Source: Macrosoma leucophasiata
Taxonomy: Eukaryota; Arthropoda; Insecta; Lepidoptera; Hedylidae
Reading direction: 5' to 3'
Length of the DNA stretch: 64,000 nucleotides
NCBI GenBank assembly: GCA_036365455.1
Contig: JAWQUS010000032.1
Location: forward strand, 16,872,001-16,936,000
Shown here one piece after another: positions 330 through 52,447 of this stretch. Each line of letters starts with the position of its first letter. Position 1 is the stretch's first letter. A program made the translations under genes and the position numbers. The notes under the pieces are model-generated. The model did not search any database. It saw only the letters and a list, made by a program, of their open reading frames with translations, and had not been told where the DNA came from.

Positions 330-3300
330 TTATCCGTCATTTTCATAATCATCAGCTTCATGGAATTCATCATCAGATTTACTGGCAGCAATGATTTCAT
401 CCCTCTCACTTGACATGTTCGGCTCATATATTTCGCCTCTCCTCCCCCTATCGACGTTACAGTGTTCCCAACCTAAAGAATCGTCAAAATCCTGAGAACG
501 TCTTGGTCGTGATCGGGTCCGCATGGTCGGTGAAAATTCATGCGGTGGTGAATGACACGGCGGCAGAGGCGAAGCTGTTGCTGTCGACGGAGATGGTGCC
601 GGTGACGGTGATGGCAGTGCCGACGACGGAGGCGGCGGCTGCGGTAGCGCGTGTACCACTTGATCAACTTCTGGTAAACATGTCGTATTATGTGTATGCG
701 TACTCGTGTTATCTTTAATACTGTCACGCGTCCCTTTGTAAAGCAGTAATTGATTTTTATGCCGTTTAATTAATCCAATTTCTTTAAAGTCTTTTATCAA
801 ATAAACAACTTTGCCTATCTTTTTAACAATAATACCTTGTTTCCATTTATAACTGGACTTGTTGAAAAACTTTTTATATAAAACTATATCATTTTTTTTT
901 AAAAGTCTCGTTTTGGCCGTAGTTTGTAATTTACTTCGCGTACACTGTTTTAATTTTACGGGTGTATGAATCTCGGGTGATGAGAGTGACGATGGTTCAC
1001 GCGTAATTAAATCCAGCCGGGATCTTAGATTATACCCAAAAACCATTTTCGCAGGTGAGATTCCCGTGGTAGTATGCATGGAATTGCGGTAGTCCATTAG
1101 ATATTTTAATAATTTAATTCGCGTGTCTTTAATGTTGCAATTAGACAATAGACATGACTTAATTCCTTTCTTTACAATTTTTACAAAACTTTCAGCTTGT
1201 CCGTTACTTGCGGGGTGATAGACCGGTGACGTAATGTGACATATGCCATTCAATTTGCAAAATTCTTCGAAGTCATGGGAACAAAATGCTGTGCCATTAT
1301 CACTCACTAACGTTTCCGGTAGCCCAAACCTTGATATAAAATCACACAACCTCTCAATTACAGCCCTCGAAGTGGTAGTACTCATAGTATAAACTTCCAC
1401 CCACTTAGTGTACGCATCTACTATCACGAGATAAGAACAATTCCTTATAGGACCTAAAAAGTCTATGTGAATTCTACGAAACGGGCGAGATGGGTATATC
1501 CAAGACGAGAGCGGGGCGCGCGGCGGGGTGGGACGCAACTGAATGCAAATCTCACATGAATTGATTAAAGTTTCCAAGGCTTTATCTATGCCTGGAAACC
1601 AAAATCTCGACCTAGCCTCAGCTTTAGTTTTTACAATGCCTAAGTGAGATGAATGTAGTTCTTTCAATATAACATCATATAAACTGCTCGGAATAACAAC
1701 TTTATGGCCTCGCATAACACATCCATTTTCAAAAGCCAGCTGTGATCTACAATTATAAAAAGGTAATATTCTCACATCATCAACTTTCTTTGGCCAACCC
1801 TGTAATATGTATTTTACAATCAGATTTAGAATGTAATCTAATTTTGTTTCCGTCCGTAACTTATTCATCGTGACCGGCATGCTTCCGTCTGTAACAAAAC
1901 AAACGTAAGCTGCTCGGTCACAGTCTATCTCGCTTTCGCCGAGTTGTTCGGTGCACGTGTCCGCGCCGCGGTCGCTCGCGGTGTGTGACGCGGGCGCCGG
2001 CAGACTCGCTCGAGATAAATAATCTGCACTATTATCCGAACTGCGAACATATTCGATAGCATAGTTATATGCACTAAGAAATAACGCGTACCGCTGTAAC
2101 CTATTTGCAGAGACCTCCGGTATGCCTTTATACGGTCCAAATATTGATATCAACGGCTTATGATCCGTACGTAATATAAATGGAACAGATCTACCATATA
2201 GGTATTGATGGAACCGTCGAACTCCAAACACGATAGCGGTCGCTTCCTTTTGGATCTGAGCGTACCTCTTTTCCGCGGCATTAAGGGTTCGGGACGCAAA
2301 ACAAATAGGTCTCTCAATGCCGTCTGCCTCTACTTGGGACAAAATTGCACCCAACCCGCTCGGGGACGCGTCCACGGTCAATATCAATTTGGTATTGGGA
2401 TTGAAATGCGTCAGCACCTGTTCCGACGTTAACACTCTTTTAATAGTGTTGAACGAGTTTTGATGCACTGAGGTCCACTGCCACTTACAACCCTTTTTTA
2501 GTAAGTCGTACAGTGGGCTAAGTATAGTGGCAGCGTTTGGTACAAAATTTCTGTAGTAGTTGATCAGACCCAAGAAAGATTGAAGTTGGCTAACATTACT
2601 AGGCGTCGGTGCATCTACCATAGCCCTAATTTTTTCAGGTGATTTTTTAAGACCATCCTTTGAAATTATGTATCCAAGATAGCTAACCTCATCCTTAAAA
2701 AAATCGCATTTCTCCCGCTGTAACGTCAACCCGGCGTCTTGTAAACGCTTTAGTACGGCATGGAGTCTATCAATATGTTCTGACATGTTCTTACCCGTCA
2801 CCAACACGTCATCTAATAGTACCAGAACTCCATCCAGCCCCGAAAGGACACACTCCATTGCGCGTTGAAAAATAGCAGGTGCGCTAGCTAACCCGAACAC
2901 CAGCCGAGTATACTGGAATAAACCGCGATGGGTATTAATGCAAGTAAAGCGCTGCGACCCCTCATCTAATAAAAATTGGTTATATGCCATAGATAAATCC
3001 AATTTCGTAAATTTCTCACCCCCGTATATTTTAGAAAATAATTCCTTTACTGTTGGAAGTGGATATTGGTCAATTATTAGCTGTTTATTAAGGCTCACCG
3101 AGTAATCGGCGCACAATCTAATAGACCCATTCCGTTTTAAGACTGGGACTATCGGCGAAGCATATTCGGAATGCTCAATAGGCTTGAGAATACCCAAATC
3201 GACCAACCTATCGATTTCCTTACCTACTTTGTCCCGTAATGCGAAAGCCACTGGGCGCGCTTTGAAAAAAACTGGTTTTGCATCATCTTTTAATATTAGC

Positions 3301-4544
3301 TTCACCTCGTATTTGTTAAATAAACCTAACTTATCCGAGAATAAAGTCGGATATTGGTCTTGCAAATCTTTAACAAATGAAGTTTCCTCATGACAGAAAT
3401 TAACTGGCATTAATTGTAAATTGAACCGGGATATGAAATCTCTTCCCAATAAGGGTGGGCCCCCATCACGGACCACGTACATATCCAATTCATGAGTCTG
3501 TCCCGTATATGATACGGGCACTCGGATCGTACCTAAACATACAATATGTTTACCATTATACGACACAAGCTTTTTGCGCGTTACTGACAATGGCACATCA
3601 TTAAAATTACTTTTGTAATAATTCTCCGATATTACAGTCACAGCAAAACCGCTATCAATTTCGAATTTTAAAATGAAATTCCTAATAAGTACCGATTCTA
3701 CCATGGGTTCTCCCCTAAACGAACGAATGTAAAAAAACTTACCATCATCATCACTCTCATCACCGACACGCACATCCACGTATTTCAATTTCGTACACAT
3801 TTTACGTAGGTGACCTTTCACGTGACACTTAGTACATTCGTAATTTGCGAATCGGCACTCTGACGACTTGTGATTCTTATAACCACATACACTACACTTC
3901 ACTTCCTTAGATTTACCATTGTTGGCGTGCTTGTATAACTTAAATAACTGGTTATCAGCACCCGGTGTATCGGTAGGTAGGGAACAGTCAACGCGGCGCG
4001 AACTGACCGCGACCGCTGCGCGCGCACAACACTGATTCTCTGCAAGCTCCACCGCTTTTGCAAGTGTGAGACCATCTAGATCTTGCACATAAAGCTTCTC
4101 TTTCTCGGGACCCGGCAGCATGCCCATGATGAATTTATCGCGGAGGGCCTCTTCTACGTTTAAAAACCTGCAGTGTTCGGTCAACCCCCGCAACCTCGCA
4201 GCCCACTGGGAATGAGTCTCACCAACATTTTGCGATGTCGCGTAAAACTTATGCCGTTCACTAAATCCCACACGTCTCGGAGTGAAATGATTGTCTAGAA
4301 GTTTCAAAATATCTTCATATGGAACTTCATCAAGCACTTTAGGCAACGCCAAATCCGTTGCTAATTTAAATGTGCCATCGGTGAGTGCACTCAGCAAAAT
4401 AGCCCTTCTTTTTATCCCCACGGGGTCGCTCTTCACATCGATCTCGTTCGCGATAAAATATTGTGAAATTCGACTCTTGTACGTCTTCCAATTTTGCAGA
4501 TTGTGGTCAAAATTGTTTAAAATTCCAAACTGAACACTCGACAT
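330..4544 (-). CDS. Gag-Pol polyprotein of the Ty3/gypsy element
   Basis: One 1,404-residue frame holds every enzyme needed for retrotransposition in the order gag, protease, RT, RNase H, integrase, which is the Ty3/gypsy order. The first ATG is at 4544; the open frame continues upstream only through the primer-binding site. Visible signs, numbered from that Met: a gag-like helical region to ~200; two CCHC zinc knuckles at ~217-250; aspartic protease DSG near 297, followed by LLGRDF; RT with LDLS (D~516) and LLDD (D~578-579); RNase H TVDAS (D~725); integrase HHCC (~964-1000) and the D,D35E triad (~1028, 1082, 1118). A proline- and serine-rich stretch and an acidic tail end the protein. No frameshift separates gag from pol, so Gag and Pol would be made in equal amounts unless another mechanism adjusts them. 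There is no envelope. Confidence 0.95.
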   Translation of the reverse strand: MSSVQFGILNNFDHNLQNWKTYKSRISQYFIANEIDVKSDPVGIKRRAILLSALTDGTFKLATDLALPKVLDEVPYEDILKLLDNHFTPRRVGFSERHKFYATSQNVGETHSQWAARLRGLTEHCRFLNVEEALRDKFIMGMLPGPEKEKLYVQDLDGLTLAKAVELAENQCCARAAVAVSSRRVDCSLPTDTPGADNQLFKLYKHANNGKSKEVKCSVCGYKNHKSSECRFANYECTKCHVKGHLRKMCTKLKYVDVRVGDESDDDGKFFYIRSFRGEPMVESVLIRNFILKFEIDSGFAVTVISENYYKSNFNDVPLSVTRKKLVSYNGKHIVCLGTIRVPVSYTGQTHELDMYVVRDGGPPLLGRDFISRFNLQLMPVNFCHEETSFVKDLQDQYPTLFSDKLGLFNKYEVKLILKDDAKPVFFKARPVAFALRDKVGKEIDRLVDLGILKPIEHSEYASPIVPVLKRNGSIRLCADYSVSLNKQLIIDQYPLPTVKELFSKIYGGEKFTKLDLSMAYNQFLLDEGSQRFTCINTHRGLFQYTRLVFGLASAPAIFQRAMECVLSGLDGVLVLLDDVLVTGKNMSEHIDRLHAVLKRLQDAGLTLQREKCDFFKDEVSYLGYIISKDGLKKSPEKIRAMVDAPTPSNVSQLQSFLGLINYYRNFVPNAATILSPLYDLLKKGCKWQWTSVHQNSFNTIKRVLTSEQVLTHFNPNTKLILTVDASPSGLGAILSQVEADGIERPICFASRTLNAAEKRYAQIQKEATAIVFGVRRFHQYLYGRSVPFILRTDHKPLISIFGPYKGIPEVSANRLQRYALFLSAYNYAIEYVRSSDNSADYLSRASLPAPASHTASDRGADTCTEQLGESEIDCDRAAYVCFVTDGSMPVTMNKLRTETKLDYILNLIVKYILQGWPKKVDDVRILPFYNCRSQLAFENGCVMRGHKVVIPSSLYDVILKELHSSHLGIVKTKAEARSRFWFPGIDKALETLINSCEICIQLRPTPPRAPLSSWIYPSRPFRRIHIDFLGPIRNCSYLVIVDAYTKWVEVYTMSTTTSRAVIERLCDFISRFGLPETLVSDNGTAFCSHDFEEFCKLNGICHITSPVYHPASNGQAESFVKIVKKGIKSCLLSNCNIKDTRIKLLKYLMDYRNSMHTTTGISPAKMVFGYNLRSRLDLITREPSSLSSPEIHTPVKLKQCTRSKLQTTAKTRLLKKNDIVLYKKFFNKSSYKWKQGIIVKKIGKVVYLIKDFKEIGLIKRHKNQLLLYKGTRDSIKDNTSTHTHNTTCLPEVDQVVHALPQPPPPSSALPSPSPAPSPSTATASPLPPCHSPPHEFSPTMRTRSRPRRSQDFDDSLGWEHCNVDRGRRGEIYEPNMSSERDEIIAASKSDDEFHEADDYENDG

Positions 4545-4558
4545 TTTTATTTTCACAC

Positions 4559-4576
4559 GCGGGTATATCGTCGCCA
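4559..4576 (-). other. Primer-binding site of the gypsy element
   Basis: One base inside the 5' LTR the minus strand reads TGGCGACGATATACC, the usual place and TGG start of a tRNA primer-binding site. The reading frame is open through it, but the first ATG lies downstream at 4544, so the site is better read as non-coding leader. The primer tRNA was not identified. Confidence 0.7.
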
Positions 4577-4577
4577 A

Positions 4578-4708
4578 TATTATATATGTGGATTGGATAC
4601 AAGTGAAAGGCTCGCTGGTTTGAATCGCACTGGTTTATTAGTAGTCAGTTAAGTGCGTAGACGCAGCTACGCACACATAGGTATCAACTAATACACGCAT
4701 ACATACCA
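4578..4708 (-). repeat. 5' LTR of the gypsy element
   Basis: Read on the minus strand it begins TGGTATGTATGCG and ends in an AT-rich run (ATATATAATA). It matches 69-199 base for base as far as I can read. It should contain the promoter of the element; no convincing TATA box or initiator was assigned. Confidence 0.9.
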
Positions 4709-7325: not shown

Positions 7326-7560
7326 TATAGTAAAAAACTCACCATCCATTTGGGTTCAATTTCTCCTTCTCCCACTCAGCACCACCATTCCCCATTTCAC
7401 TGGTATCACTGGACTGTTTTTGACATTATCACAATTTCACTGGTAACTTTGTTGTATCACTGATCAGTCACTACTTTGTCTAGGTACTAATTAGGTATTA
7501 TAAGTGTGAAAGTATGTTTGTCTAATAACTTTACCTTAAGATTCGAAATAAGTAATACTT

Positions 7561-8010
7561 TATTTTTAAAGAAAAATGGAAAGAAAAATATGACTTCAGG
7601 CGAGACTCTGGGACTACTGGGAATCTAGTCCAGCCGCTCTTCCAATTGAGCTACTGAAGCCCTGCCCGATTTTGTCAAATCTTTCCTTCACATGAAATAT
7701 ATTTCACAAGCATGTGTTAATGCGAAATAATATAAAAACAATTATTAAGGGTAAAAGCGACTTCTTTACGATATTCAATAAACTGAAAAGTCTATTATAT
7801 CGGTTGCCTAACTAGCATAGTTGGTAATAGATGGCGTTGCTGCTACCATAAAGCAATGCTACTGGGAATCTAGTCCAGCTATCTGGACTAGATTCCCAGT
7901 AGGTCGCGAGTTCGAGTCTCGCCTGAAGTCATATTTTTCTTTCCATTTTTCTTTAAAAATAAAATATATGCACACAAGCATGTGTTAATGCGAAATAATA
8001 TAAAAACAAT
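7561..8010. mobile_element. Inverted tRNA-like retroposon, copy 1, with 12-bp direct repeats
   Basis: Flanked by TAAGTAATACTT at 7549-7560 and 8011-8022. The left part carries a minus-strand tRNA-like sequence (7592-7661, with an internal deletion). The right part carries the plus-strand second half of the same sequence (7883-7930) and the complete 3' tail ending AAAAACAAT. The left end stops at the A-rich site TATTTTTAAAG. The middle (7690-7855) reads from one unit's tail into the head of the next, as in a multimer. See 36316-38974. Confidence 0.75.
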
Positions 8011-8022
8011 TAAGTAATACTT

Positions 8023-8352: not shown

Positions 8353-8543
8353 ACACGGAGCGGAATACCGAGCGGGTTTCGCTCGGGCATTTTGTATGAA
8401 GTTCCGCGACTAAGAGCACACGGAGCGGAATACCGAGCGGGTTTCGCTCGGGCATTTTGTATGAAGTTCCGCGACTAGAGCACACGGACCGGAATACCGA
8501 GCGGGTTTCGCTCGGGCATTTTGTATGAAGTTCCGCGACTAGA
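8353..8543. repeat. Three tandem 64-65-bp repeats with a stem-loop in each
   Basis: Units start at about 8353, 8418 and 8482. Each contains CCGAGCGGGTTTCGCTCGG, which folds into a short hairpin, and ends ...TTCCGCGACTA(A)GAG. The units differ by only a few bases. The array abuts the 3' side of the tRNA-derived SINE at 8544-8775. The open frame through it is not a gene. Confidence 0.75.
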
Positions 8544-8775
8544 GAGGAACAAAAAAATAAAATACGCTTACACTCACAGCCCCACAGTAGGTCGTGGGTG
8601 CCGTTGTACACATACAACACATACACAAACACCCAGACCCGAAACAAATATCTGTATCTGTGCATACAAATATTTGTCCCGGTGCGGGGATCGAAACCGC
8701 GACCCTTCGAATCAAACGGTCATCTCACACCGCTGGATTAACCGGGTCGAACAAACCGCATCACCACGCGCTATG
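8544..8775 (-). mobile_element. tRNA-derived SINE (family with CCCGGTTAGTCC head)
   Basis: On the minus strand the head (8673-8750) is tRNA-like with a B box close to GGTTTCGATCCC. It is followed by a body containing ACAAATATTTGTATG and a GTGTTTGTGTATGTGTTGT stretch. The same family occurs at 14165-14335 and as a composite at 34797-35334. Probably pol III transcribed and LINE mobilised. Confidence 0.7.
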
Positions 8776-13500: not shown

Positions 13501-14083
13501 TCCACAACGCCCTAAACCGAGGATAAGATCTGCAGGGGTCTCCCTTAGGCAGTTGTGAAATGAATTTACACAACTGCTATTTAGGCTTAGACCCCTTTGC
13601 TCCCGCCGATTGCCCGGTGAAGTAACACTGCGATTGAAACCAAATATCACAGTTTACCTTGCACCCTCCACAACGCCCTAAACCGAGTATTGGACCCGAA
13701 GGGGTTTCCCCTAGGCAGTTGTGTAAATTTATTTAGACTTAGAGCCCTTTGCTCCCGCCGATTGCCCGGTGAAGTAACACTGCGATTGAAACCAAATATC
13801 ACAGTTTACCTTGCACCCTCCACAACGCCCTAAACCGAGTATTGGACCCGAAGGGGTTTCCCCTAGGCAGTTGTGTAAATTTATTTAGACTTAGAGCCCT
13901 TTGCTCCCGCCGATTGCCCGGTGAAGTAACACTACGATTGAAACCAAATATCACAGTTTACCTTGCACCTTCCACAACACCTTAAACCGAAGATCGGACC
14001 CGTAGGGGTCTCCCCTAGGCAGTTGTGTAAATTTATTTAGGCTTAGAGCCCTTTACACCCGCCGATTGCCCGGTGTAGTAGAC
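13501..14083. repeat. 152-bp tandem repeat, 3.8 copies
   Basis: Units begin at the word TCCACAACGCCCTAAACCG (13501, 13667, 13819, 13971). The last three are 152 bp apart; the first is 166 bp because of extra bases. Each carries GGCAGTTGTG and CCGCCGATTGCCCGGTG. Units two and three are almost identical, suggesting recent unequal exchange. An inverted single-copy relative is at ~17826-17880, so the unit probably came from a dispersed element. Confidence 0.85.
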
Positions 14084-20274: not shown

Positions 20275-20610
20275 TAGGGTTGCTGAGGATCCCTCTTCCT
20301 CATAATAAGGAAGTTCCGCAATATTTTGGGATCAACCGTTTCCGCATCCTCAAAAATTAGAATAAAAAATTCCTCTTCCGCTACCGCTTCCTCAAAATTT
20401 AAGAGGAATTTATGAGGAATTTTGTTGCGCATGCGCGTCGCGTATCGATGGCAACGCACACGCCGCAGCACGGTGCCAGGCCGAACAGGCGAGCGAGACC
20501 TTCCCACCCGCCACCGGCTTCCTCATAAAAATATCCTCTTCCTCATCCGCATCCTCTAAATTGGCGCATCACAATTCCTCTTCCTCATAATCACTTCCTC
20601 AACAACCCTA
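20275..20610. mobile_element. hAT-type MITE, 336 bp, 8-bp target duplication
   Basis: Starts TAGGGTTGCTGAGGA and ends TCCTCAACAACCCTA, flanked by ATGATTAC at 20267-20274 and 20611-20618. Eight-base duplications are the hAT signature. The interior is rich in CTTCCTCA words in both orientations. The minus-strand open frame across it is not a gene. Confidence 0.85.
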
Positions 20611-20618
20611 ATGATTAC

Positions 20619-23350
20619 GTCCTTGGCTGCCTTGGGTTTCGTGATGATTTAATAGTTCTACCAATAAAGATATGCGAATATAGGCTTCGAAACATATTCG
20701 AGTCAGTCAATCTTTCAATTCTGCCTTCTGGTCCAACTCATCATAATCTCAACACTTCTGACACTTTGCTTGACTTGATTGTTACGTCTTCTCTTAATCG
20801 CGTAATTAAACACGGTCAAATACCGGCCCCTGGTTTTTCTCTTCTTGATCTTGTTTATTTGGCGTATAAACTTAAATTACCTAAACCTAAGCCAGAAATA
20901 GTCTGGCTGCGGAATTTTAGCAGTATTAATTACGACTGCTTAAGAGCTGATGCTGCTCGCTTGGACTTCTTACCGGTTTATGATGCGTTGTCGGTTGATG
21001 AAAAACTTTCACACTTCAATTCTCATGTTCTGAAACTGTACGACGCACATGCACCGGTGAGGGCAGTCAGGTTGAAGCGGCCGCCTGCATCCTGGATAAC
21101 AGCGGGTGTTCGCATGGCGATGAGGCGTCGAGATAGAACTTTCCGGGTCTTTAAGCGTGACAGGTGCGATGATAACTGGTGTTTGTATAAGGCTGCTAGA
21201 AACCGGTGTAACCAAATGGTAAGAGCAGCCAAACGTCGATACTTTTTTGATAAAGTTGCAGATTCCTCTACAACAGAAATATGGAAATTTCTGAACTCTC
21301 TAGGTTTCGGCAAAGCTGCCAAGCCTGTGGACACTAACCTTTTTTCTCCCAATACTTTAAATTCTTATTTTTCTCATGTCTTTCCCCTTAACTCTTCTAT
21401 AAAAATAAGTACTCTGTCGGATATTTCTCTCTTAACTCAAACTTACACAGACTCTTTTAAATTTTCTAAAATCGATGTAGAGGACACCCTAAAAATTATT
21501 AACTCCATAAAATCCAATGCGATAGGCAGTGATGACATAAGTCGAATGATGATTATGCCTATACTCCAGTTCATTGTTCGCCCTTTAACTCATATCATTA
21601 ATTATTCTTTAGAGTCGGGGGTCTTCCCTTTGATGTGGCAAAAAGCTTTTGTGGTCCCACTTCCAAAAGTTAATAACCCCCGCGAATTAAAGGAGTATAG
21701 GCCTATTTCAATACTACCGTTTCTCTCAAAAACCCTCGAAGCTGTTGTCCATAAACAGGTGTCATCTTACGTGCATGCAAACAATTTAATATCTTCGTTT
21801 CAATCCGGTTTTCGACCTGGGCACAGTACCACCACTGCACTTCTTAAGGTTACAGAGGATATTAGGACTGGCATGGAGGATAAAATGGTCACTATTTTGG
21901 TACTTATAGATTTCTCAAACGCATTTAATATGGTATACCATGATATCCTCCTTGCTATTTTGAAACACTTTAATTTTGTCCCTGTAGTGGTTGAATGGTT
22001 TTCCTCTTACCTTAAAGATAGACAGCAAGCGGTTAGGGCCAATGGGGTGTTTTCTAATTGGTGTTATCTAAGTGCGGGTGTTCCCCAGGGCGGTATTCTG
22101 TCACCCTTATTATTTTCGTTGTTCATTAACATTCTTTCGACTATTTTGGACTGCTCTTACCATTTCTACGCTGATGACTTGCAACTATATTGTCAATCGA
22201 GTGTAGTAAATATTGATAGTGCTGTTCATAGGATTAACAGTAACCTTCATAAAATTAGTTCTTGGTCACACAAATATGGCATCCAAGTTAATCCTAATAA
22301 GTGCCAAGCCATTATAGTTGGTAGTTCACGCCAACTAGGGAAATTAAATTATAGTACCATCGCGCCTGTCCTGTTTGAAAACCAAATAATTTTACTTTCT
22401 ACAGCTGTTAAAGATTTGGGTTTACATATTGATTCAACGCTAAGTTGGAGAGTACAGATCAGCGAGGTAAGTCGAGCCGTTTATGCCGCATTACATTCTC
22501 TGAACCGACTTAGAAATTTTCTGCCCATTGATACTAAGATTCGTCTTGTTCAGGCCCTCATTTTCCCCATTATTGATTATGCTGATGTGTGTTATTTGGA
22601 TCTGAATGAGACCTTTCTAGACAAACTTGATAGATTAATAAATAATGCAATCCGCTTCATCTTTTGTCTTCGTAAGTTTGATCATGTCTCTTTATTTCGA
22701 TCAAAACTAAATTGGCTCCCAGTTCGACAACGAAGACAAACACGGCTTCTTTCTCAACTCTTTTCTATTCTTTCAGATCCTTGTACTCCTTCTTATTTAA
22801 AGTGTAAATTTCAACATCTTTCATCTTCACACTCACTACAATTACGCTCTAGTGATTCTAACATCCTTTCCATCCCTCTTCATCATTCCGGCTTTATATC
22901 CAGCTCATTTGGCATTCAAGTAGTACGTTTGTGGAATGCTCTTCCGGAGGATATACGTCGACTCACTTCAAAGGCTGCTTTCAAAAAAAGAGTCAAAGCA
23001 TACTTTCAAAAATAGTAAGTATCAGCAAAATCATCATCTATTATAAGCATATGTATATATCTTTAACGATATATTTATGTACTATAATTTCATGATTTTA
23101 GTATTATATTTATATTCATAAAATTCAGAATATTATCTAGATATGTATTTAAGTATATTTCATTATAATATGTACGTACTGTTGAGTGTATGTATTAAGT
23201 CATTTTTTTTTTTCCTAATTATTCATTAATGCCGCCAACCAATCTTTCTACACTACCAATGGTTGACTGGTAGAGAGCGCTTTTAGCGTTAAGTCCGCCA
23301 TTTGCTCAAATATTATGTATTTTGTGGCAATAAAGATTAAATAAATAAAT
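20619..23350 (+). mobile_element. 5'-truncated non-LTR retrotransposon (LINE) with 3' UTR and (AAAT)n tail
   Basis: The coding frame is open from 20619. The stop is at 23013-23015. A ~330-bp 3' UTR follows, with the word GGTTGACTGGTAGAGAGCGC, then AATAAAGATTAAATAAATAAAT. The same 3' UTR recurs as short copies at 28503-28612 and 46310-46425, so this is a multicopy family. Most of the endonuclease and any ORF1 are missing. Confidence 0.85.
20766..23015 (+). pseudogene. LINE reverse transcriptase ORF2 (partial, jockey-superfamily like)
   Basis: About 750 residues, 5'-truncated and with no natural start; TTG at 20766 is only a convention, and the frame is open back to 20619. Residues 1-40 are the C-terminal end of an AP-type endonuclease (LDLIVTS ... 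HGQIPAPG). Where an S-D/H-H active-site motif is expected it reads GFSLLD, so the catalytic His is absent. The RT spans ~280-550, with IDFSNAF (Asp ~382), GVPQGGILSP (~438-447) and YADD (~468-471). A thumb and C-terminal region end in VVRLWNALPEDIRR. The RT core looks intact, but without the endonuclease and 5' region the copy cannot move itself. Confidence 0.85.
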
Positions 23351-31800: not shown

Positions 31801-34264
31801 CGGTGGACCCCTCCTTGCTGCATTTATATCACATTCCCATATTACCAATTATTATTCACGCCCACGTAGACCCTTATCGAGTCTCCCATGGACCCCAGGG
31901 GGTCCAACCTGGACCACTGGGAACCACTGATTTAATTGATTAAAATAAGAAGAGAGAATTAAAGAGTAACTGAGTAACTGTGTGGTACCCTAGAGAGGGC
32001 CAACGAACGAGAGGCACACCCCAGGCAAGTGGCTGGTGTGACGTGGAACAGAGTAGCTCAGGAAAGAGCAGAATGGAAAAGGTTGGAAGAGGCCTTTGGC
32101 GACTGGCAGACGGATTTGCATAAGATAAAAAAACGCGAAATATTAAATTAAATAAGTTCAGAAAAAAAACATTGCTATACGTTCTTTAAGTTTAAGATAG
32201 ATTTGTTAATGATTTTAAGTTTAGATCCGAATAAAGTGCTATATTATTATTATTAATTGATTAAAATGGTTATCTTCACACTATTACAGAAAGATGGCCG
32301 GCCCAGGAAGGTTTTGGTGGAAACAGGAGATGCTTTATTGTGGCAGACCCTCGCCTCTGTTGTCATACCCGGCTTCACTATAAATAGGTGGGTATACTTC
32401 TAATATGCAGTCATTGATTGTTATGGTGGTTATTTTTTTTATGTAAGGAAATTGGCCAACCAGCATGCAGCTCACATTGATATTAAGTGATGACTGCAGC
32501 CTATAGACACTTACACATAGACCATGGACAAAATGCAGATGCGTTACCACACCCGAGACCTAAGGTGTTATTTTTTTTTTAATTTTTTTTTTATGTAATA
32601 AAAGTGGCAAACAAGCATGCAGTTCACATTGATGTTAAGTGATGACTGCAGCCTATAGACAACCACACAATGACCAGAGGTCAAAATGCAGATGCGCTGC
32701 CACTCTTGAGACATTAGGTGTTATGCCTCTGTGCCGGAAATTACAGGGCCGTACATTACCACCTGACCGGAACACGATAGTGATGAACACTACCATTTAG
32801 CGGCAAGTATATTAGGTAATGCGGTGGTGCCTACGCCCGCGTACTCCGTCACTGGAGCTCTACCACCAGTAAAAATTATGTCTCTGCGATAGTTATTACG
32901 GGGCCATATATTACCATCTAACCGGAACGCGATAGTGCTGAACACTACCGATTAGTACCGATTGGCGGCAGATACATATTTATTAGGTAATGCGATGGTG
33001 CCTACGCTCTCGAGCTTATACAGTTGGAACTCGACCACCATTAAAAGAACATGTGCGTTATTCACACGTGGTAGAAGTAAAACCCTTAAAAAATTCATAA
33101 GAGACACAGCATTGTGTTTCATGCTTGCTATCTCACTTTCTCCCAAATCTTATGTATTTGTGTCTGTCTCTTTTTACTGTCGCTTTTTCGTTTCATCGAT
33201 TTTCAAATAACGACGTTATGAAGTTTTCACTATCAAAATTATTATTTTTTAACTAGATGTCCCCGCGACTTCGCCCGAGTGTGAATGTATGATTGTTCAG
33301 TATATACCCGGACTAAGTAGTCGGGCGCAGCTAGTAGAAAAGTAGCCTAGGTTACTCCTTATTACATCAGCTATCTGCCAGTGAAAGTCCCGTCAAAATC
33401 GGTCCAGCCGTTGACAAGATTAGCCCTGCCAAACAGACAGACAGACAAAAATTGTAAAAAATGTTGTTTTGGTATATGTACCGTGTATACATACATATGC
33501 ATTTAGTAAGAAGCGGTAATTTAATATTACAAACAGACACTCCAATTTTATTTATTTGTATAGATAATTTCATAAATTGTATAATTAAGGTGACATACCT
33601 ACGTATTGTCTTATATTATTTCGCGTTAACACATGCTTGTGAAATATATTTTATTTTAAAGAAAAATGGAAAGAAAAATTTGACTTCAGGCGAGACTCGA
33701 ACTCGCGGCCTACTGGGAATCTAGTCCAGCCGCTCTTCCAATTGAGCTACTGAAGTCCTGCCCGATTTGTCAAATCTTTCCTTCAATCTTTCCTTCAAAT
33801 TTGTTGCATTGCTTTATGGTAGCAGCAGCGCCATCTATTGCCAACTATGCTAGTTAGGCAACTGGCTAGGCTAGCTGGACTAGATTCCCAGTAGGCCGCG
33901 AGTTCGAGTCTCGCCTGAAGTCAAAATTTTCTTTCCATTTTTCTTTAAAATAAAATACCTACGTATCATACTATTATTTTCTTGAATGATTTGTGTATAT
34001 TTATGTGAAAATGTAATAATAAAATTAATTCCGTTGACTATCAAAAGTATCAAAATAGATTTATTGATTGATGAACCAATCATTTATTCTTCCAGATTAT
34101 GCGCATTCTCGTACGGCAAATTGAAGAAGACCAAGTTACCGAAAACGCCTCGAAAACTGTTGACAGTTGTTATAGGTCTTGCGTCCATCCCTATAATAGT
34201 GCACCCCATAGACAGCGGGGTCACGTACCTTATGAACCAAACTTATAGAAAATGGGTCACGTAA
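28011..34264 (+). CDS. MTFP1: Mitochondrial fission process protein 1 (MTFP1/MTP18) orthologue, four exons
   Basis: Join 28011-28065, 30910-31037, 32290-32387, 34096-34264 (450 nt, 149 residues and stop). All junctions are GT-AG and keep frame. MTFP1 is an inner mitochondrial membrane protein; in mammals it promotes fission and is a target of PI3K signalling. The product matches the family throughout: FRDSWVRYLGYANEVGE at 10-26, FRSLVP at 28-33, GYVLADTADK at 46-55, WQTLASVVIPGFTINR at 79-94, and IPIIVHPIDSGV at 125-136. The animal protein is about 166 residues; this one is slightly shorter at the C-terminus. Hydrophobic stretches at ~37-50, 80-92 and 115-130 fit membrane segments. Introns of 2844, 1252 and 1708 bp are mostly mobile elements. 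No second copy was seen. Confidence 0.97.
28130..28480 (+). mobile_element. E-type MITE, diverged copy in MTFP1 intron 1
   Basis: Contains GGGGAGTAGCTATATG near the left and GGCTACTACCCTTCGG near the right, the inverted ends of the family best seen at 49472-49780. Confidence 0.6.
28503..28612 (-). repeat. LINE 3' UTR fragment
   Basis: Reverse copy of the 3' end of the 20619-23350 LINE: AAATAAATAAATAAA tail and CTGGTAGAGAATGC on the minus strand. A severely 5'-truncated insertion in intron 1. Confidence 0.7.
28806..28852. repeat. (CA)n/(TA)n microsatellite
   Basis: ACACACACATATAT... simple repeat. Confidence 0.9.
28949..29238 (+). repeat. Family A repeat, full length
   Basis: From CTACTGGTGGTAGAGTCCC to TTTCATGACATAAAAAATAA; lies in MTFP1 intron 1. 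Confidence 0.85.
29403..29702 (+). repeat. Family A repeat, full length, with a local duplication
   Basis: From GTGACGGAGCTTCTGGG to the A-tail. GAACACTACCATCATGCACTA shows small internal additions around the CACTATC words. Confidence 0.8.
29710..29849 (+). repeat. Family A repeat cut by a D-type MITE
   Basis: The 5' half (AAGGTGGTAGTGTTCC ... ACATGGTAATGTATGG). The element continues at 30073 (CCCGTAATAAGTGTC...), so the D insertion came later. Confidence 0.7.
29857..30065 (-). mobile_element. D-type MITE, copy 2, with exact 7-bp duplication
   Basis: 209 bp, CACACCGCGG ... CATATTCTCTG, flanked by GCCCCGT at 29850-29856 and 30066-30072. It interrupts a family A repeat. Confidence 0.8.
30286..30440 (-). 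repeat. Family A repeat, 3' half
   Basis: GATGTTAAGCGATGACTGCAG through GGAAATTACAGGGCCGTAC. Confidence 0.75.
30441..30909. other. Intron 1 end, unassigned
   Basis: Contains a pair of half-related segments (GGGCGTCGCCAGGGGGTGG and CTGGCGACGCCC inverted at ~30447 and ~30610), suggesting a small decayed inverted-repeat element, then the exon 2 acceptor. No gene on the minus strand is supported. Confidence 0.4.
30910..31037 (+). CDS. MTFP1: MTFP1 exon 2
   Basis: Acceptor TGTGTCAG before 30910, donor GTTTGT at 31038. Encodes residues 19-61. It is markedly GC-richer than its surroundings, which helps mark it as coding. Confidence 0.95.
31374..31486 (-). repeat. Family A repeat, 5' third
   Basis: GAACACGGTAATGCTGAAC to CTACCACCAGT. 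Confidence 0.7.
31731..31929. mobile_element. hAT-type MITE, 199 bp, 8-bp duplication
   Basis: Begins CAGAGATTCCCAAACT and ends GGGAACCACTG, flanked by ATTTAATT at 31723-31730 and 31930-31937. Termini and duplication length are those of hAT elements. In MTFP1 intron 2. Confidence 0.85.
31985..32258 (+). pseudogene. C-terminal remnant and tail of an RTE-like LINE
   Basis: The frame from ~32025 to the stop at ~32149-32151 encodes ...TWNRVAQERAEWKRLEEAF..., like the C-terminus of lepidopteran endonuclease-reverse transcriptases of the RTE type. A short 3' UTR and an (ATT)n tail follow. Severely 5'-truncated. Confidence 0.6.
32290..32387 (+). CDS. MTFP1: MTFP1 exon 3
   Basis: Acceptor CTATTACAG before 32290, donor GTGGGT at 32388. 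Encodes residues 62-93 plus two bases of Arg94. Confidence 0.95.
32428..32572 (-). repeat. Family A repeat, 3' half
   Basis: TTATGTAAGGAAATTGGCC ... GAGACCTAAGGTGTTA; directly followed by another family A copy inserted next to it. Confidence 0.75.
32573..32875 (-). repeat. Family A repeat, full length
   Basis: Poly-T at 32571-32592 through GCATGCAGTTCACATTGATG and CTACCACCAGTAAAAAT; very close to consensus. Confidence 0.85.
32876..33046 (-). repeat. Family A repeat, 5' half of the interrupted copy
   Basis: TGTCTCTGCGATAGTTATTACG to CGACCACCATTAAAA. Probably the other half of the 32428-32572 copy, split by the 32573-32875 insertion. Confidence 0.7.
33253..33545 (-). mobile_element. Non-autonomous Helitron-like element
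   Basis: Reverse copy of the 14690-14989 family: CTAGATGTCCCCGCGAC at the left, GGTCCAGCCGTT and a CAGACAGACAGACA run in the middle. In MTFP1 intron 3. Confidence 0.65.
33607..33954. mobile_element. Inverted tRNA-like retroposon, copy 2, with 12-bp direct repeats
   Basis: Flanked by ATACCTACGTAT at 33595-33606 and 33955-33966. Complete minus-strand tRNA-like sequence at 33682-33757, then an inverted half copy at 33875-33922. The left end is the complete tail (TGTCTTATATTATTTCGC); the right end stops in the A-rich site TTCTTTAAAATAAA. The orientation is the mirror of the 7561-8010 element. In MTFP1 intron 3. Confidence 0.8.
34096..34264 (+). CDS. MTFP1: MTFP1 exon 4 and stop
   Basis: Acceptor TTCTTCCAG before 34096. 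Encodes the rest of Arg94 to Thr149, stop TAA at 34262-34264. No clear AATAAA was found before the SINE at 34337, so the 3' end of the transcript is unknown. Confidence 0.93.
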
Positions 34265-34796: not shown

Positions 34797-35334
34797 GCTT
34801 ACACTCACAGCTCCACATTCTTCTTCTTAGTCGTGCACTCTTGGCAGAGTGGTCGTGGTCATGTATCGGTCACTTTATCTTTCTCCGTCGTGATCGCGAT
34901 GCGTCGCCATGTAGCTCGATGTCTGGCAGAGTGAGAGCTCCACATTAGGTATTACATAAACCTGTGTCGTAGATTGCACACATACAACACATACACAAAC
35001 ACTCAAGACCCGAAACAAATATCTGACGACCCGGTTAGTCCAGCGGTGTGAGATGACCGTTTGATTCGAAGGGTCGCGGGTTCGATCCCCGCACCGGGAC
35101 AAATATTTGTATGGCCTACAGATATTTGTTTCGGGTTTGGGTGTTTGTGTATGTGTTGTATGTGTACAACGGCACCCACGACACAGGTTTATACCTACTG
35201 TGGGGCTGTGAGTCTAAGCGTATTTTAGTATTTTATCTGTAGGCCGTACAAATATTTGTTTCGGTGCGGGGATCGAACCCGCAACCCTTCGAACCAAACG
35301 GTGGTCTCGCACCGCTGGACTAACCGGGTCGTCA
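34797..35334. mobile_element. Composite of a second tRNA-like family in alternating orientation
   Basis: Reverse tail (34797-34819 and 34947-35021), then a sense tRNA-like head and full tail (about 35022-35225), then a reverse tail start plus a complete reverse tRNA-like head (35226-35334). The head starts near GACGACCCGGTTAGTCC and has a perfect B box GGTTCGATCCC. A 116-bp SINE sits inside the left part. The inverted layout parallels the 307-bp family at 36316. Confidence 0.7.
34820..34935 (+). mobile_element. 116-bp nested SINE with 11-bp target duplication
   Basis: Flanked by AGCTCCACATT at 34809-34819 and 34936-34946. Contains GCACTCTTGGCAGAGTGG. It interrupts the tail of the tRNA-like element; without it the tail wording is continuous with that at 8571-8590. 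Confidence 0.7.
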
Positions 35335-35998: not shown

Positions 35999-36315
35999 AG
36001 TTCACTGTAGTTTAGTTATTCGTCCAAGCTTCGAAATTTAGAGATAGTGGCTTTTCCCTAATGGATTTTGCCTAGCTAGAGCTTGCGTCCTTACAAAAAG
36101 GTTTTTTAGGTGACTATGGCCAGTCTTTTGAAAAAGAAAGGAAGAAAAAGACCCTATTGGTTCAGTCGTGAGACCTGCGATCCAAACATACATAAATCTC
36201 ATAACAAAGGAATTAGACACACAAGGATACGAAAATTAAAAACACAAACTTAAATATTTATTTTAAATTGGTCTTCCAGGAGACTTTTGTATTGTCAGTT
36301 TACAAGCTACCTATA
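35999..36315. other. Unassigned sequence before the tRNA-like array
   Basis: No gene recognised. 36304-36315 (AAGCTACCTATA) is the left 12-bp direct repeat of the array. Confidence 0.4.
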
Positions 36316-37771
36316 ATTGTTTTATATTATTTCGCATTAACACATGCTTGTAAAATATATTTTATTTTTAAAGAAAAATGGAAAGAAAAATTTGACTTCA
36401 GGCGAGGCTCGAACTCGCGACCTACTGGGAATCTAGTCCAGCCGCTCTTCCAATTGAGCTACAGAAGCCCTGCCCGATTTGTCAAATCTTTCCTTCACAT
36501 CTATTGCATTGCTTTATGGTAGCAGTAGCGCCATCTATTACCAACTATGCTAGTTAGGCAACCGATATAATAGACTTTTCAGTTTATTGAATATCGTAAA
36601 GAAGTCGCTTTTACCCATAATAATTGTTTTATATTATTTCGCATTAACACATGCTTGTAAAATATATTTTATTTTTAAAGAAAAATGGAAAGAAAAATTT
36701 GACTTCAGGCGAGGCTCGAACTCGCGACCTACTGGGAATCTAGTCCAGCCGCTCTTCCAATTGAGCTACTGAAGCCCTGCCCGATTTGTCAAATCTTTCC
36801 TTCACATCTATTGCATTGCTTTATGGTAGCAGTAGCGCCATCTATTACCAACTATGCTAGTTAGGCAACCGATATAATAGACTTTTCAGTTTATTGAATA
36901 TCGTAAAGAAGTCGCTTTTACCCATAATAATTGTTTTATATTATTTCGCATTAACACATGCTTGTAAAATATATTTTATTTTTAAAGAAAAATGGAAAGA
37001 AAAATTTGACTTCAGGCTAGGCTCGAACTCGCGACCTACTGGGAATCTAGTCCAGCCGCTCTTCCAATTGAGCTACTGAAGCCCTGCCCGATTTGTCAAA
37101 TCTTTCCTTCACATCTATTGCATTGCTTTATGGTAGCAGTAGCGCCATCTATTACCAACTATGCTAGTTAGGCAACCGATATAATAGACTTTTCAGTTTA
37201 TTGAATATCGTAAAGAAGTCGCTTTTACCCATAATAATTGTTTTATATTATTTCGCATTAACACATGCTTGTAAAATATATTTTATTTTTAAAGAAAAAT
37301 GGAAAGAAAAATTTGACTTCAGGCGAGGCTCGAACTCGCGACCTACTGGGAATCTAGTCCAGCCGCTCTTCCAATTGAGCTACTGAAGCCCTGCCCGATT
37401 TGTCAAATCTTTCCTTCACATCTATTGCATTGCTTTATGGTAGCAGTAGCGCCATCTATTACCAACTATGCTAGTTAGGCAACCGATATAATAGACTTTT
37501 CAGTTTATTGAATATCGTAAAGAAGTCGCTTTTACCCATAATAATTGTTTTATATTATTTCGCATTAACACATGCTTGTAAAATATATTTTATTTTTAAA
37601 GAAAAATGGAAAGAAAAATTTGACTTCAGGCGAGGCTCGAACTCGCGACCTACTGGGAATCTAGTCCAGCCGCTCTTCCAATTGAGCTACTGAAGCCCTG
37701 CCCGATTTGTCAAATCTTTCCTTCACATCTATTGCATTGCTTTATGGTAGCAGTAGCGCCATCTATTACCA
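36316..37771 (-). repeat. Left arm: 4.7 tandem 307-bp units, minus orientation
   Basis: Unit starts are spaced exactly 307 bp. Differences are single bases, for example ACAGAAGCC for ACTGAAGCC near 36461 and GGCTAGGC for GGCGAGGC near 37015. The near identity points to recent origin, copying from one RNA, gene conversion or an assembly effect. Confidence 0.85.
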
Positions 37772-38974
37772 AATAATATAAAACAATTATTATGGGTAAA
37801 AGCGACTTCTTTACGATATTCAATAAACTGAAAAGTCTATTATATCGGTTGCCTAACTAGCATAGTTGGTAATAGATGGCGCTACTGCTACCATAAAGCA
37901 ATGCAATAGATGTGAAGGAAAGATTTGACAAATCGGGCAGGGCTTCAGTAGCTCAATTGGAAGAGCGGCTGGACTAGATTCCCAGTAGGTCGCGAGTTCG
38001 AGCCTCGCCTGAAGTCAAATTTTTCTTTCCATTTTTCTTTAAAAATAAAATATATTTTACAAGCATGTGTTAATGCGAAATAATATAAAACAATTATTAT
38101 GGGTAAAAGCGACTTCTTTACGATATTCAATAAACTGAAAAGTCTATTATATCGGTTGCCTAACTAGCATAGTTGGTAATAGATGGCGCTACTGCTACCA
38201 TAAAGCAATGCAATAGATGTGAAGGAAAGATTTGACAAATCGGGCAGGGCTTCAGTAGCTCAATTGGAAGAGCGGCTGGACTAGATTCCCAGTAGGTCGC
38301 GAGTTCGAGCCTCGCCTGAAGTCAAATTTTTCTTTCCATTTTTCTTTAAAAATAAAATATATTTTACAAGCATGTGTTAATGCGAAATAATATAAAACAA
38401 TTATTATGGGTAAAAGCGACTTCTTTACGATATTCAATAAACTGAAAAGTCTATTATATCGGTTGCCTAACTAGCATAGTTGGTAATAGATGGCGCTACT
38501 GCTACCATAAAGCAATGCAATAGATGTGAAGGAAAGATTTGACAAATCGGGCAGGGCTTCAGTAGCTCAATTGGAAGAGCGGCTGGACTAGATTCCCAGT
38601 AGGTCGCGAGTTCGAGCCTCGCCTGAAGTCAAATTTTTCTTTCCATTTTTCTTTAAAAATAAAATATATTTTACAAGCATGTGTTAATGCGAAATAATAT
38701 AAAACAATTATTATGGGTAAAAGCGACTTCTTTACGATATTCAATAAACTGAAAAGTCTATTATATCGGTTGCCTAACTAGCATAGTTGGTAATAGATGG
38801 CGCTACTGCTACCATAAAGCAATGCAATAGATGTGAAGGAAAGATTTGACAAATCGGGCAGGGCTTCAGTAGCTCAATTGGAAGAGCGGCTGGACTAGAT
38901 TCCCAGTAGGTCGCGAGTTCGAGCCTCGCCTGAAGTCAAATTTTTCTTTCCATTTTTCTTTAAAAATAAAATAT
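37772..38974 (+). repeat. Right arm: 3.9 tandem 307-bp units, plus orientation
   Basis: Begins inside the unit tail (AATAATATAAAACAATTATT), then runs through complete units and stops at AAAAATAAAATAT. It pairs with the left arm over more than 1.1 kb. Confidence 0.85.
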
Positions 38975-38991
38975 AAGCTACCTATAGTATA

Positions 38992-39180: not shown

Positions 39181-39814
39181 GATGAATGGTGTGTCCACAA
39201 TTCAGTAAAACACAACAGAACAACAGTGTCTCACGGCTGCACCAAATGGATTCCGGTTCAGAATGATTTAGGTTGGAATCTGACGCTGGTTTTCATGTTG
39301 CCTTTAGTTCCCAAAAATGGGGAAATCAGGCTGTTATTTATAAACTTATATAGCTATAGCTTGTGTAATGTGATAAATCTGCGAGCGATTTTTGGAGGTA
39401 CGACTTTATTAGACAATTTTTCTTTCTAGGACGCTTTTTATGAGTCGATTGAAAACGTTTGATGTTAATTGCTGTCAAATGTGACAAATAAAATCCGTAG
39501 CAGGTGACAAGTTGACTTGCATATTTATTTAATTCTACATAAGGCATTGTAATTGTTGTATTTTTAGGGTGAATAAAATTACTAAGTCGATGGGTATTGT
39601 AGAAAACAACGGTTTACTGATAAAACTCAAACTAAAATGTTTGCCCTGAAAAATGACAATATTCGACTTGTCAACTTATTCACGCCTAGAACGGAATTGA
39701 GAAATAGAAATACGCACACAACGCACAGTATTACACCCAATATAGTTCGTATAAAATTATTTGTAATAGGCTTGTAATTTGTTTCAGACAGAAGATGGCA
39801 GCATAATTTAATAT
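39181..39814. other. Unassigned sequence
   Basis: Two short open frames on opposite strands lack any family match. 39803-39814 is the left direct repeat of the next element. Confidence 0.4.
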
Positions 39815-40100
39815 ATTTTATTTTTAAAGAAAAATGGAAAGAAAAATTTGACTTCAGGCAAGACTCGAACTCGCGGCCTACTGGGAATCTAGTCCAGTCG
39901 CTCTTCCAATTGAGCTACTGAAGTCCTAAATCAAGAATTATAAACTGAGTATTGAGGACTTCAGTAGCTCAATTGGAAGAGCGGCTGGACTAGATTCCCA
40001 GTAGGCCGCGAGTTCTAGTCTTGCCTGAAGTCAAATTTTTCTTTAAAAATAAAATATATTTCACAAGCATGTGTTGATGCGAAATAATATAAAAACAATT
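39815..40100. mobile_element. Inverted tRNA-like retroposon, copy 3, head-to-head dimer with 12-bp direct repeats
   Basis: Flanked by ATAATTTAATAT (39803-39814, 40101-40112). Minus-strand tRNA-like core 39850-39925 and plus-strand core 39957-40032 face each other across a 31-base spacer not found in the 307-bp unit. The left end stops at the A-rich site (ATTTTATTTTTAAAG); the right end is the complete tail (AAAAACAATT). Confidence 0.8.
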
Positions 40101-40112
40101 ATAATTTAATAT

Positions 40113-51437: not shown

Positions 51438-52314
51438 AAAATAATATTCAACGTGAACTATAAGCTTTTTTGCTACTTACTTACGACAAATATGAGTATC
51501 TAATGAATTAACTTTGAATTTCTAGATTCAAGTAAACTGAACTTGACTGAAAAATATTATTGCAGTAGTACCCAATTCGTATGAAAAAAAAAATGGCACA
51601 ATGAACTGAAAATTATGTAAGGAACACAATTAAGAACTTGTATAAAGTAGGTATCTAGTCCTGCAAAATAATGACATGCTCGCTTGAACTCGCTCACAAC
51701 TCGCTTCTAATTAATTTGTATAAAATACAGGATAAATAAAAATCTCCATTTTTAAAATTAAAAACTTCTCAGACGTTCTATTCCTAAGGAGAGGTTCTAT
51801 TGAGGATAAAATTATTCCCGAAAAAAAATCATGCGGTTGGTATTCAATTACCATAAATATAAACTCTTACAACTTCTGCACCTACTAAAAAACTTATCCG
51901 AAATAGGTAAGTACAAAGTTACCTAATAACCGATATCTGGCTGAATTGCTTCAGGATCCGTGACACCTTTCACACAAAAAAAAAACAAAAACTCACCGAA
52001 AAAAATAAAACAGGCAATGGCACGGGATCACTGGGTGACTGAGGTACTACCACAGACTGACACAATTAATTGATAGTTACGACGTATCGTTTTAAATTGT
52101 TTGTATGGTAAACAAATGCGTGTTGTATGTTGACGCGGTAATGTAACACTGGGTGCAGGCGCCGGCGTAATGCTTGTGATTCTGCTGCGAGAGTTACGAG
52201 TGAGCTTGGTCGATAAGAGGCGGCGGCAGCGATAGCGTATTTTTTGTTCTGTTGATGTAAGCAACTGGAAAAAAATCTGTTGTCTGTTTTAAAGAATATT
52301 GGAAAGATAACTTT
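51438..52314. other. Unique-looking sequence, function unknown
   Basis: 52100-52260 is GC-richer than its surroundings, with an open minus-strand frame of 78 codons rich in Arg and Ser. A minus-strand GTGAGT near 51990 could be a splice donor. This could be the first exon or promoter of a gene outside the window, but no family match is visible. Confidence 0.25.
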
Positions 52315-52390
52315 GACTTCAGGCGTGACTTGAACCCGCGACCACTGGGATCTCTAGTCCAGCCGCTCTCTCAACCGAGCTACCGAAGTC
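52315..52390 (-). tRNA. Diverged single tRNA-like sequence
   Basis: 76 nt with the same layout as the 36316 array cores: paired acceptor arms (GACTTC/GAAGTC), A box TAGCTCGGTTGA, B box GGTTCAAGTCA. The anticodon stem has an extra base. Body wording resembles tRNA-Lys and tRNA-Phe. Probably a retroposed relative rather than a functional gene. Confidence 0.5.
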
Positions 52391-52447
52391 CACGACCGAT
52401 CGCCAAATTTTTCTTTACTATTATTGTATTGTCTTGGGGTGGTAGTA

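Follow-up and report, generated by a model that had tools for sequence, protein, structure and literature searches.

Mirror-image tandem copies of a 307-nt tRNA-like unit as candidate products of Penelope-type two-strand priming

A 307-nt repeat unit with a tRNA-like domain was examined in the present study within a window of 64,000 nt, the term window referring throughout to the whole stretch of DNA that was analysed. The unit forms an inverted tandem array at 36304–38986, which we confirm as a real feature of the sequence. With a probability of roughly 0.7, we propose that the unit is a short, non-autonomous retroelement of the Penelope type (PLE), inserted by priming on both target strands from a multi-lap RNA. 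The mirror-image copies of this tRNA-like element would then constitute a compact natural record of how the Penelope class may integrate.

The array comprises two arms in head-to-head orientation, enclosed by exact 12-bp direct repeats of AAGCTACCTATA at 36304–36315 and 38975–38986, the last 3 bases of the left copy also matching the 307-nt unit. According to TRF (period 307), the left arm (36313–37772, minus strand) holds 4.8 laps of the unit, antisense on the plus strand, and the right arm (37771–38975, plus strand) holds 3.9 laps in the sense orientation, the two meeting in a 2-base overlap (AA) at 37771–37772. This agrees with the sequence-only reading, which had described opposed arms of about 4.7 and 3.9 units meeting in the same overlap inside one 12-bp repeat. 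The same reading held the outer ends to be non-equivalent, one being the complete unit tail and the other stopping at an internal site; the ends do differ, but the left arm stops, with its tail, at unit position ~298–301 and not at the end of a complete unit, while the stop of the right arm, which is without the tail, can be refined to unit ~257–258. The inner ends lie at unit ~67–70 in the left arm and at unit ~282 in the right arm. When aligned, as had been suggested, the laps proved near-identical, with 0 in-phase mismatches in the right arm and 3 mismatching in-phase pairs in the left arm, corresponding to two single-lap substitutions (at 36463 and 37018). A further tandem array is present in the window at 13578–14080, where a 152-bp unit is repeated 3.3 times with 95% matches; it has no Rfam match at gathering score.

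A blastn search with one unit, in which matches under 50 bits were disregarded, located five loci of the 307-nt-unit family in the window, comprising the array and four others, and a profile search agrees with this count. Insertion A (7549–8022) is bounded by the 12-bp sequence TAAGTAATACTT at 7549–7560 and 8011–8022, with an antisense arm extending to 7693 and a sense arm that starts at about 7692, runs across the lap junction and covers 1.16 laps in unit coordinates; an internal inverted rearrangement is located at 7859–7879. Three near-identical 64-bp tandem copies (8353–8544) lie ~330 bp downstream of this insertion. Insertion B (33595–33966) is bounded by the 12-bp sequence ATACCTACGTAT at 33595–33606 and 33955–33966, its antisense arm (33607–33862) carrying the tailed end and its sense arm occupying 33874–33954. 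A 12-bp tandem duplication within the antisense arm of insertion B (33773–33796) has the same length as the target duplications, which may be coincidence. Insertion C (39803–40112) is bounded by the 12-bp sequence ATAATTTAATAT at 39803–39814 and 40101–40112, with an antisense arm extending to 39927 and a sense arm (39955–40100) that carries the tailed end and has a 12-nt deletion. Insertions B and C each cover less than one lap. The remaining locus (52272–52447, minus strand) is a diverged relative with 77% identity, consisting of a single antisense arm (unit 87–262), at which a second arm and a 12-bp repeat were sought and neither was found. Head-to-head arms within their own exact 12-bp repeat are present at four of the five loci and at every one of the four well-preserved loci, and the three further insertions, which are built alike, show that the arrangement is not unique to the array. 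Exact-pattern scans of viral and genome contigs, together with a distant blastn search of plasmids, returned no relatives, a result that says little because these collections hold no insects.

The four insertions have four different exact 12-bp direct repeats. Such differences among the 12-mers suggest that they are target duplications, not element sequence, and speak against the case that the sequence-only reading had named as fatal to its interpretation, namely 12-bp repeats belonging to the element itself. In a control set of 30000 pairs of 30-base windows at similar spacing, from which the insertions were excluded together with the array and two further tandem arrays, a word of at least 12 bases was common to 33 pairs; with the tandem arrays included the control was inflated, 0.86% of 19838 pairs reaching that length. 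The target repeats are A or T at 38 of 48 positions, compared with a fraction of 0.617 for the window. The earlier proposal of a single insertion within one target duplication, with priming on both strands as its simplest explanation, is supported.

Outer ends were read by eye after removal of the 12-mer, blastn extending a few of these ends into the repeat (≤5 bases). In unit coordinates they lie at 298 and 257 in the array, 299 and 251 in insertion A, 296 and 253 in insertion B, and 299 and 256 in insertion C. Every insertion (4/4) has one far, tailed end (296–299) and one near end (251–257), separated by 41–48 nt, with the far end on the left in the array and insertion B and on the right in insertions A and C. 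With tailed and untailed ends assigned at random, one of each in all four would be expected with a frequency of 1/16, the sample being four insertions. Both outer-end sites are preceded by A-rich sequence, and, as judged by eye, the outer ends share with the target an A/T microhomology of 1 to 5 bases. The tail stretch, exemplified by 38668–38711 on the plus strand (unit ~258–301), lies between two putative start sites of reverse transcription and could fold into a hairpin; the same hairpin is predicted for the array, the first lap of insertion A and insertion C, with different folds in the second lap of insertion A and in insertion B.

Inner ends lie at unit positions of about 282 and 67 in the array, 252 and 114 in insertion A, 172 and 52 in insertion B, and 143 and 143 in insertion C, the latter both being two bases before the tRNA-like domain. 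They do not correspond in three of the four insertions, so that the junction is no snap-back palindrome, and arms that end at such unrelated positions speak for two independently started cDNAs. Filler is present at the junctions of insertion B (~11 nt) and insertion C (~27 nt), the best match to the latter elsewhere in the window being 12 nt.

The sense arm of insertion A spans more than one lap independently of the array, which demonstrates a multi-lap template, as the sequence-only reading had supposed; the lap junction that it crosses is the one found in the array, but for one substitution. States common to both arms of an insertion and absent from the other insertions amount to 6 columns in the array and 1 each in insertions A, B and C, against 1 to 7 other rows in each case, using three array laps and leaving out the diverged locus. 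Among the columns covered by the arms, 321 of 323 are identical in the array, 96 of 158 in insertion A (a value lowered by the rearrangement and gaps), 85 of 86 in insertion B and 105 of 119 in insertion C. Judging from these arm-shared states, the two arms of each insertion probably derive from one source, as would fit two cDNAs; the shared states could also reflect later gene conversion between the arms.

In the mechanism that we favour, the unit would be a short, protein-less retroelement mobilised in trans by Penelope-type machinery. A PLE-type protein, perhaps acting as a dimer, would cut the two strands of an AT-rich target with a 12-bp stagger, and each exposed 3' end would prime reverse transcription, one near unit 251–257 and the other near unit 296–299, with the two start sites flanking the tail stretch able to form the hairpin. 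Both cDNAs would extend toward the 5' end of the RNA, and the template would be a multi-lap RNA, either linear or circular, so that the coverage of a single cDNA may range from part of a lap to several laps. Joining of the far ends of the two cDNAs would rely on microhomology or involve filler, and the target duplication would result once the 12-nt overhangs were filled in. We infer that a PLE-type enzyme inserted all four insertions by such both-strand priming; the fifth locus, where neither a second arm nor a repeat was found, counts against this explanation.

The insertions agree with published descriptions of PLEs. The purified PLE protein of Anolis cuts and extends both target strands in vitro, as reported in 2024, prefers AT-rich DNA and is predicted to form a dimer. 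Its reverse transcription begins at two adjacent sites within the RNA, which bound a stretch corresponding to the optional tail of 30–40 bp found in genomic copies; tandem copies are reported for PLEs in the same study (PMC11167929). Penelope insertions of Adineta vaga have inverted head-to-head pLTRs with a 31-bp tail on one inverted copy, and their duplications measure 8–10 bp, some insertions being without any (PMC3846280). Tandem second copies, inverted pLTRs and short 3' extensions are listed as PLE features in PMC8969392. The present insertions share with the Penelope/Poseidon clade (PAc of Anolis, Penelope of Drosophila virilis) and the A. vaga Penelopes tandem or partly tandem copies (the array and insertion A), inverted head-to-head terminal copies within one target duplication (four of five loci), an AT-rich target, and two adjacent putative starts of reverse transcription matching an optional tail, which is found at one outer end in all four insertions and is 41–48 nt in length compared with 30–40 bp in PLEs. 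In contrast to those PLEs, the unit has no ORF, no hammerhead core was found in it, and it carries a tRNA-like domain, while the insertions have arms of up to 4.8 laps and duplications of 12 bp in 4/4 cases, more uniform than the 8–10 bp or none of A. vaga. A hammerhead motif is said to be carried by PLEs in the pLTR. Since the literature on PLEs already includes arms in head-to-head orientation, tandem copying and alternative 3' ends separated by a few tens of bases, the combination is not new in kind, contrary to what the sequence-only reading had suggested.

Short non-autonomous Penelope elements have been reported from heliconiine butterflies (PMC6685494) and resemble the present unit in having a lepidopteran host and in being short, non-autonomous and of Penelope type, the comparison being one of descriptions without structure. 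The two may be the same kind of element, and, given that report, elements of this kind may already be on record, though not their mechanism. Within the open-licence literature, no title or abstract opening was found in which PLE-type insertions of a tRNA-like unit are named. The origin of PLE head-to-head copies is unsettled, with self-priming on an antisense template preferred for the A. vaga Penelopes in 2013 (PMC3846280) versus both-strand cutting and extension in vitro in 2024. A short element that retains both start sites, both arms and the 12-bp stagger would offer a natural assay of PLE integration, and the SINE and Penelope worlds would meet in a PLE-type unit that carries such a tRNA-like domain.

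A likeness to animal retrozymes had also been drawn, and it holds in part. Metazoan non-LTR retrozymes likewise have short non-coding repeat units and target duplications (>4 bp), but they are defined by a type I hammerhead, and the word 'inverted' has 0 occurrences in the retrozyme text (PMC7229834). No hammerhead was found in the unit, either in the Rfam scan or in a core search, which detected neither CTGANGA nor a relaxed core on either strand; the unit is therefore not a retrozyme as described in the available text of that study. No ribozyme family was found in the array with Rfam up to an E value of 10, apart from two 13-bit matches to RAGATH-7 (E 8.6). Matches to MIR7526 and MIR7502 at 37.7–37.9 kb were given no weight because they span the inverted junction and fall below the gathering scores of those families.

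Twin priming by LINEs is an established process, in which, for LINE-1, both target strands prime on the RNA and an inverted 5' part results, and it affects only part of L1 insertions. An ordinary event of this type, with a tRNA-derived SINE inserted by LINE machinery and its 5' part inverted, would share both-strand priming and an inverted part with the present insertions and would suit the tRNA-like cloverleaf domain of the unit, particularly as lepidopteran tRNA-derived SINEs (HaSE1, HaSE2; PxSE2, PxSE3) also have a tRNA-related region and a length of a few hundred bp, and as HaSE1 has a LINE-like 3' end (PMC3272025). We nevertheless consider it unlikely. The inversion is found in 4/4 intact insertions versus only part of L1 insertions, and the outer ends are two internal sites, neither of them in poly(A) or simple repeats, as opposed to the poly(A) start of LINE-1. 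Duplications of 12 bp in 4/4 also differ from the 5–17 bp seen in 5'-truncated copies of HaSE1 (PMC3272025). The insertions have the tRNA-like region of a LINE-dependent SINE, and neither a poly(A) or simple-repeat 3' end nor variable duplications. The word 'inverted' is absent from PMC3272025 and occurs once, in a reference title, in PMC8010984, and no matching tRNA SINE was found in the available part of a Helicoverpa zea transposon paper. Head-to-head arms would also be produced by snap-back self-priming, in which a single cDNA folds back and copies itself, the model preferred for the A. vaga Penelopes (PMC3846280). Insertion C, with both inner ends at the same unit position, would fit this model, but the unrelated inner ends of the three other insertions and the non-palindromic junction make it very unlikely for the family. 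It is improbable, too, that a simple head-to-head insertion gained its laps later through unequal exchange or DNA slippage; the identical laps fit recent local amplification, yet both arms would need to have been amplified to a similar lap number, and insertion A already exceeds one lap. The reading to which we give least credence is a foldback or MITE-like DNA transposon whose tRNA-like arms serve as terminal inverted repeats and whose transposase cuts with a 12-bp stagger. Such an element would explain 12-bp duplications and inverted arms in 4/4, but the termini differ by 41–48 nt in every insertion where terminal inverted repeats would be symmetric, the tailed end changes side among the insertions, and the inner ends vary; we know of no transposase class with a 12-bp duplication.

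Within two-strand priming by a PLE-type enzyme, the template may have been a circular RNA of 307 nt that was reverse-transcribed in rolling-circle fashion, though we give this form rather less than even odds; it would be a sub-model and does not compete with the preferred reading. Laps within arms are identical but for the two single-lap substitutions, the array and insertion A share their lap junction but for one base, and circular RNAs are known for animal retrozymes (PMC7229834). On the other hand, no ribozyme was found that would cut the RNA into monomers, a linear multimer transcribed from a tandem array predicts the same junction, and a multi-copy PLE mRNA is part of the scenario in PMC11167929. 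One cDNA also stops near the start of the other in the array (16 nt) and in insertion A (1 nt), as would be expected on one linear template. This contiguity fails in insertions B (106 nt) and C (113 nt), and random ends did as well in 0.037 of trials; the test was a post hoc choice, with positions entered by hand. We rejected the contiguity as proof of a linear RNA and regard it as a weak hint toward a linear multimer.

The tRNA-like domain (for example, unit 145–221 at 38862–38938 on the plus strand, one of nine in the array) scores 41.7–49.4 bits against the Rfam tRNA family in all nine laps holding it, based on a permissive scan of the array, and was called tRNA-Ser(AGA) by ARAGORN, in keeping with its original description as tRNA-like. 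We treat it as tRNA-like because a long variable arm is a feature of true tRNA-Ser. The default Rfam scan of the whole window lacks the nine tRNA-like domains of the array, although the permissive array scan scores them up to 49.4 bits. On the minus strand at 35257–35330, ARAGORN additionally called a tRNA-Pro(TGG) for which Rfam gave no match at gathering score; it is possibly another tRNA-derived repeat. A 258-nt portion of one lap folds far better than shuffled sequences (z −4.45), and the flanks of the tRNA-like domain could pair in an extended stem of ~16 bp. Covariation gave no support for this stem among four sequences, only one of 38 predicted pairs being changed on both sides and the covariation term being slightly against it (+1.38). 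Five Ts occur shortly 3' of the domain, and a T run tends to stop RNA polymerase III. As these Ts would tend to end such transcripts before the start sites of reverse transcription, the template of the array family is probably a read-through or polymerase II transcript.

A doubtful extension of the preferred reading is that the tRNA-like domain replaces the PLE hammerhead, with processing at its 5' end defining the end of the template RNA, and that two-strand priming is obligatory, with one enzyme subunit for each start site (near and far). The 5'-end-processing part is suggested by a sole observation, the ending of both cDNAs of insertion C two bases before the tRNA-like domain. The pattern of one tailed and one untailed end in 4/4 insertions points to the part concerning near and far subunits.

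At 307 nt, the unit is far too short for the reverse transcriptase and GIY-YIG ORF of an autonomous PLE. Neither a PLE reverse transcriptase nor a GIY-YIG domain was found among the 20 ORFs scanned with Pfam, out of 45 stop-to-stop ORFs of at least 95 aa in the window, the only reverse transcriptases among those scanned being of LTR type and LINE type. An open frame of 1434 aa at 333–4634 encodes reverse transcriptase, RNase H and integrase, apparently representing an LTR retrotransposon with its coding region open. A lepidopteran host is probable, judging from a transposon, the LINE ORF at 20529–23012, for which the matches that name an organism are all from moths or butterflies among the 120 listed of 939 found (7988 candidates scored).
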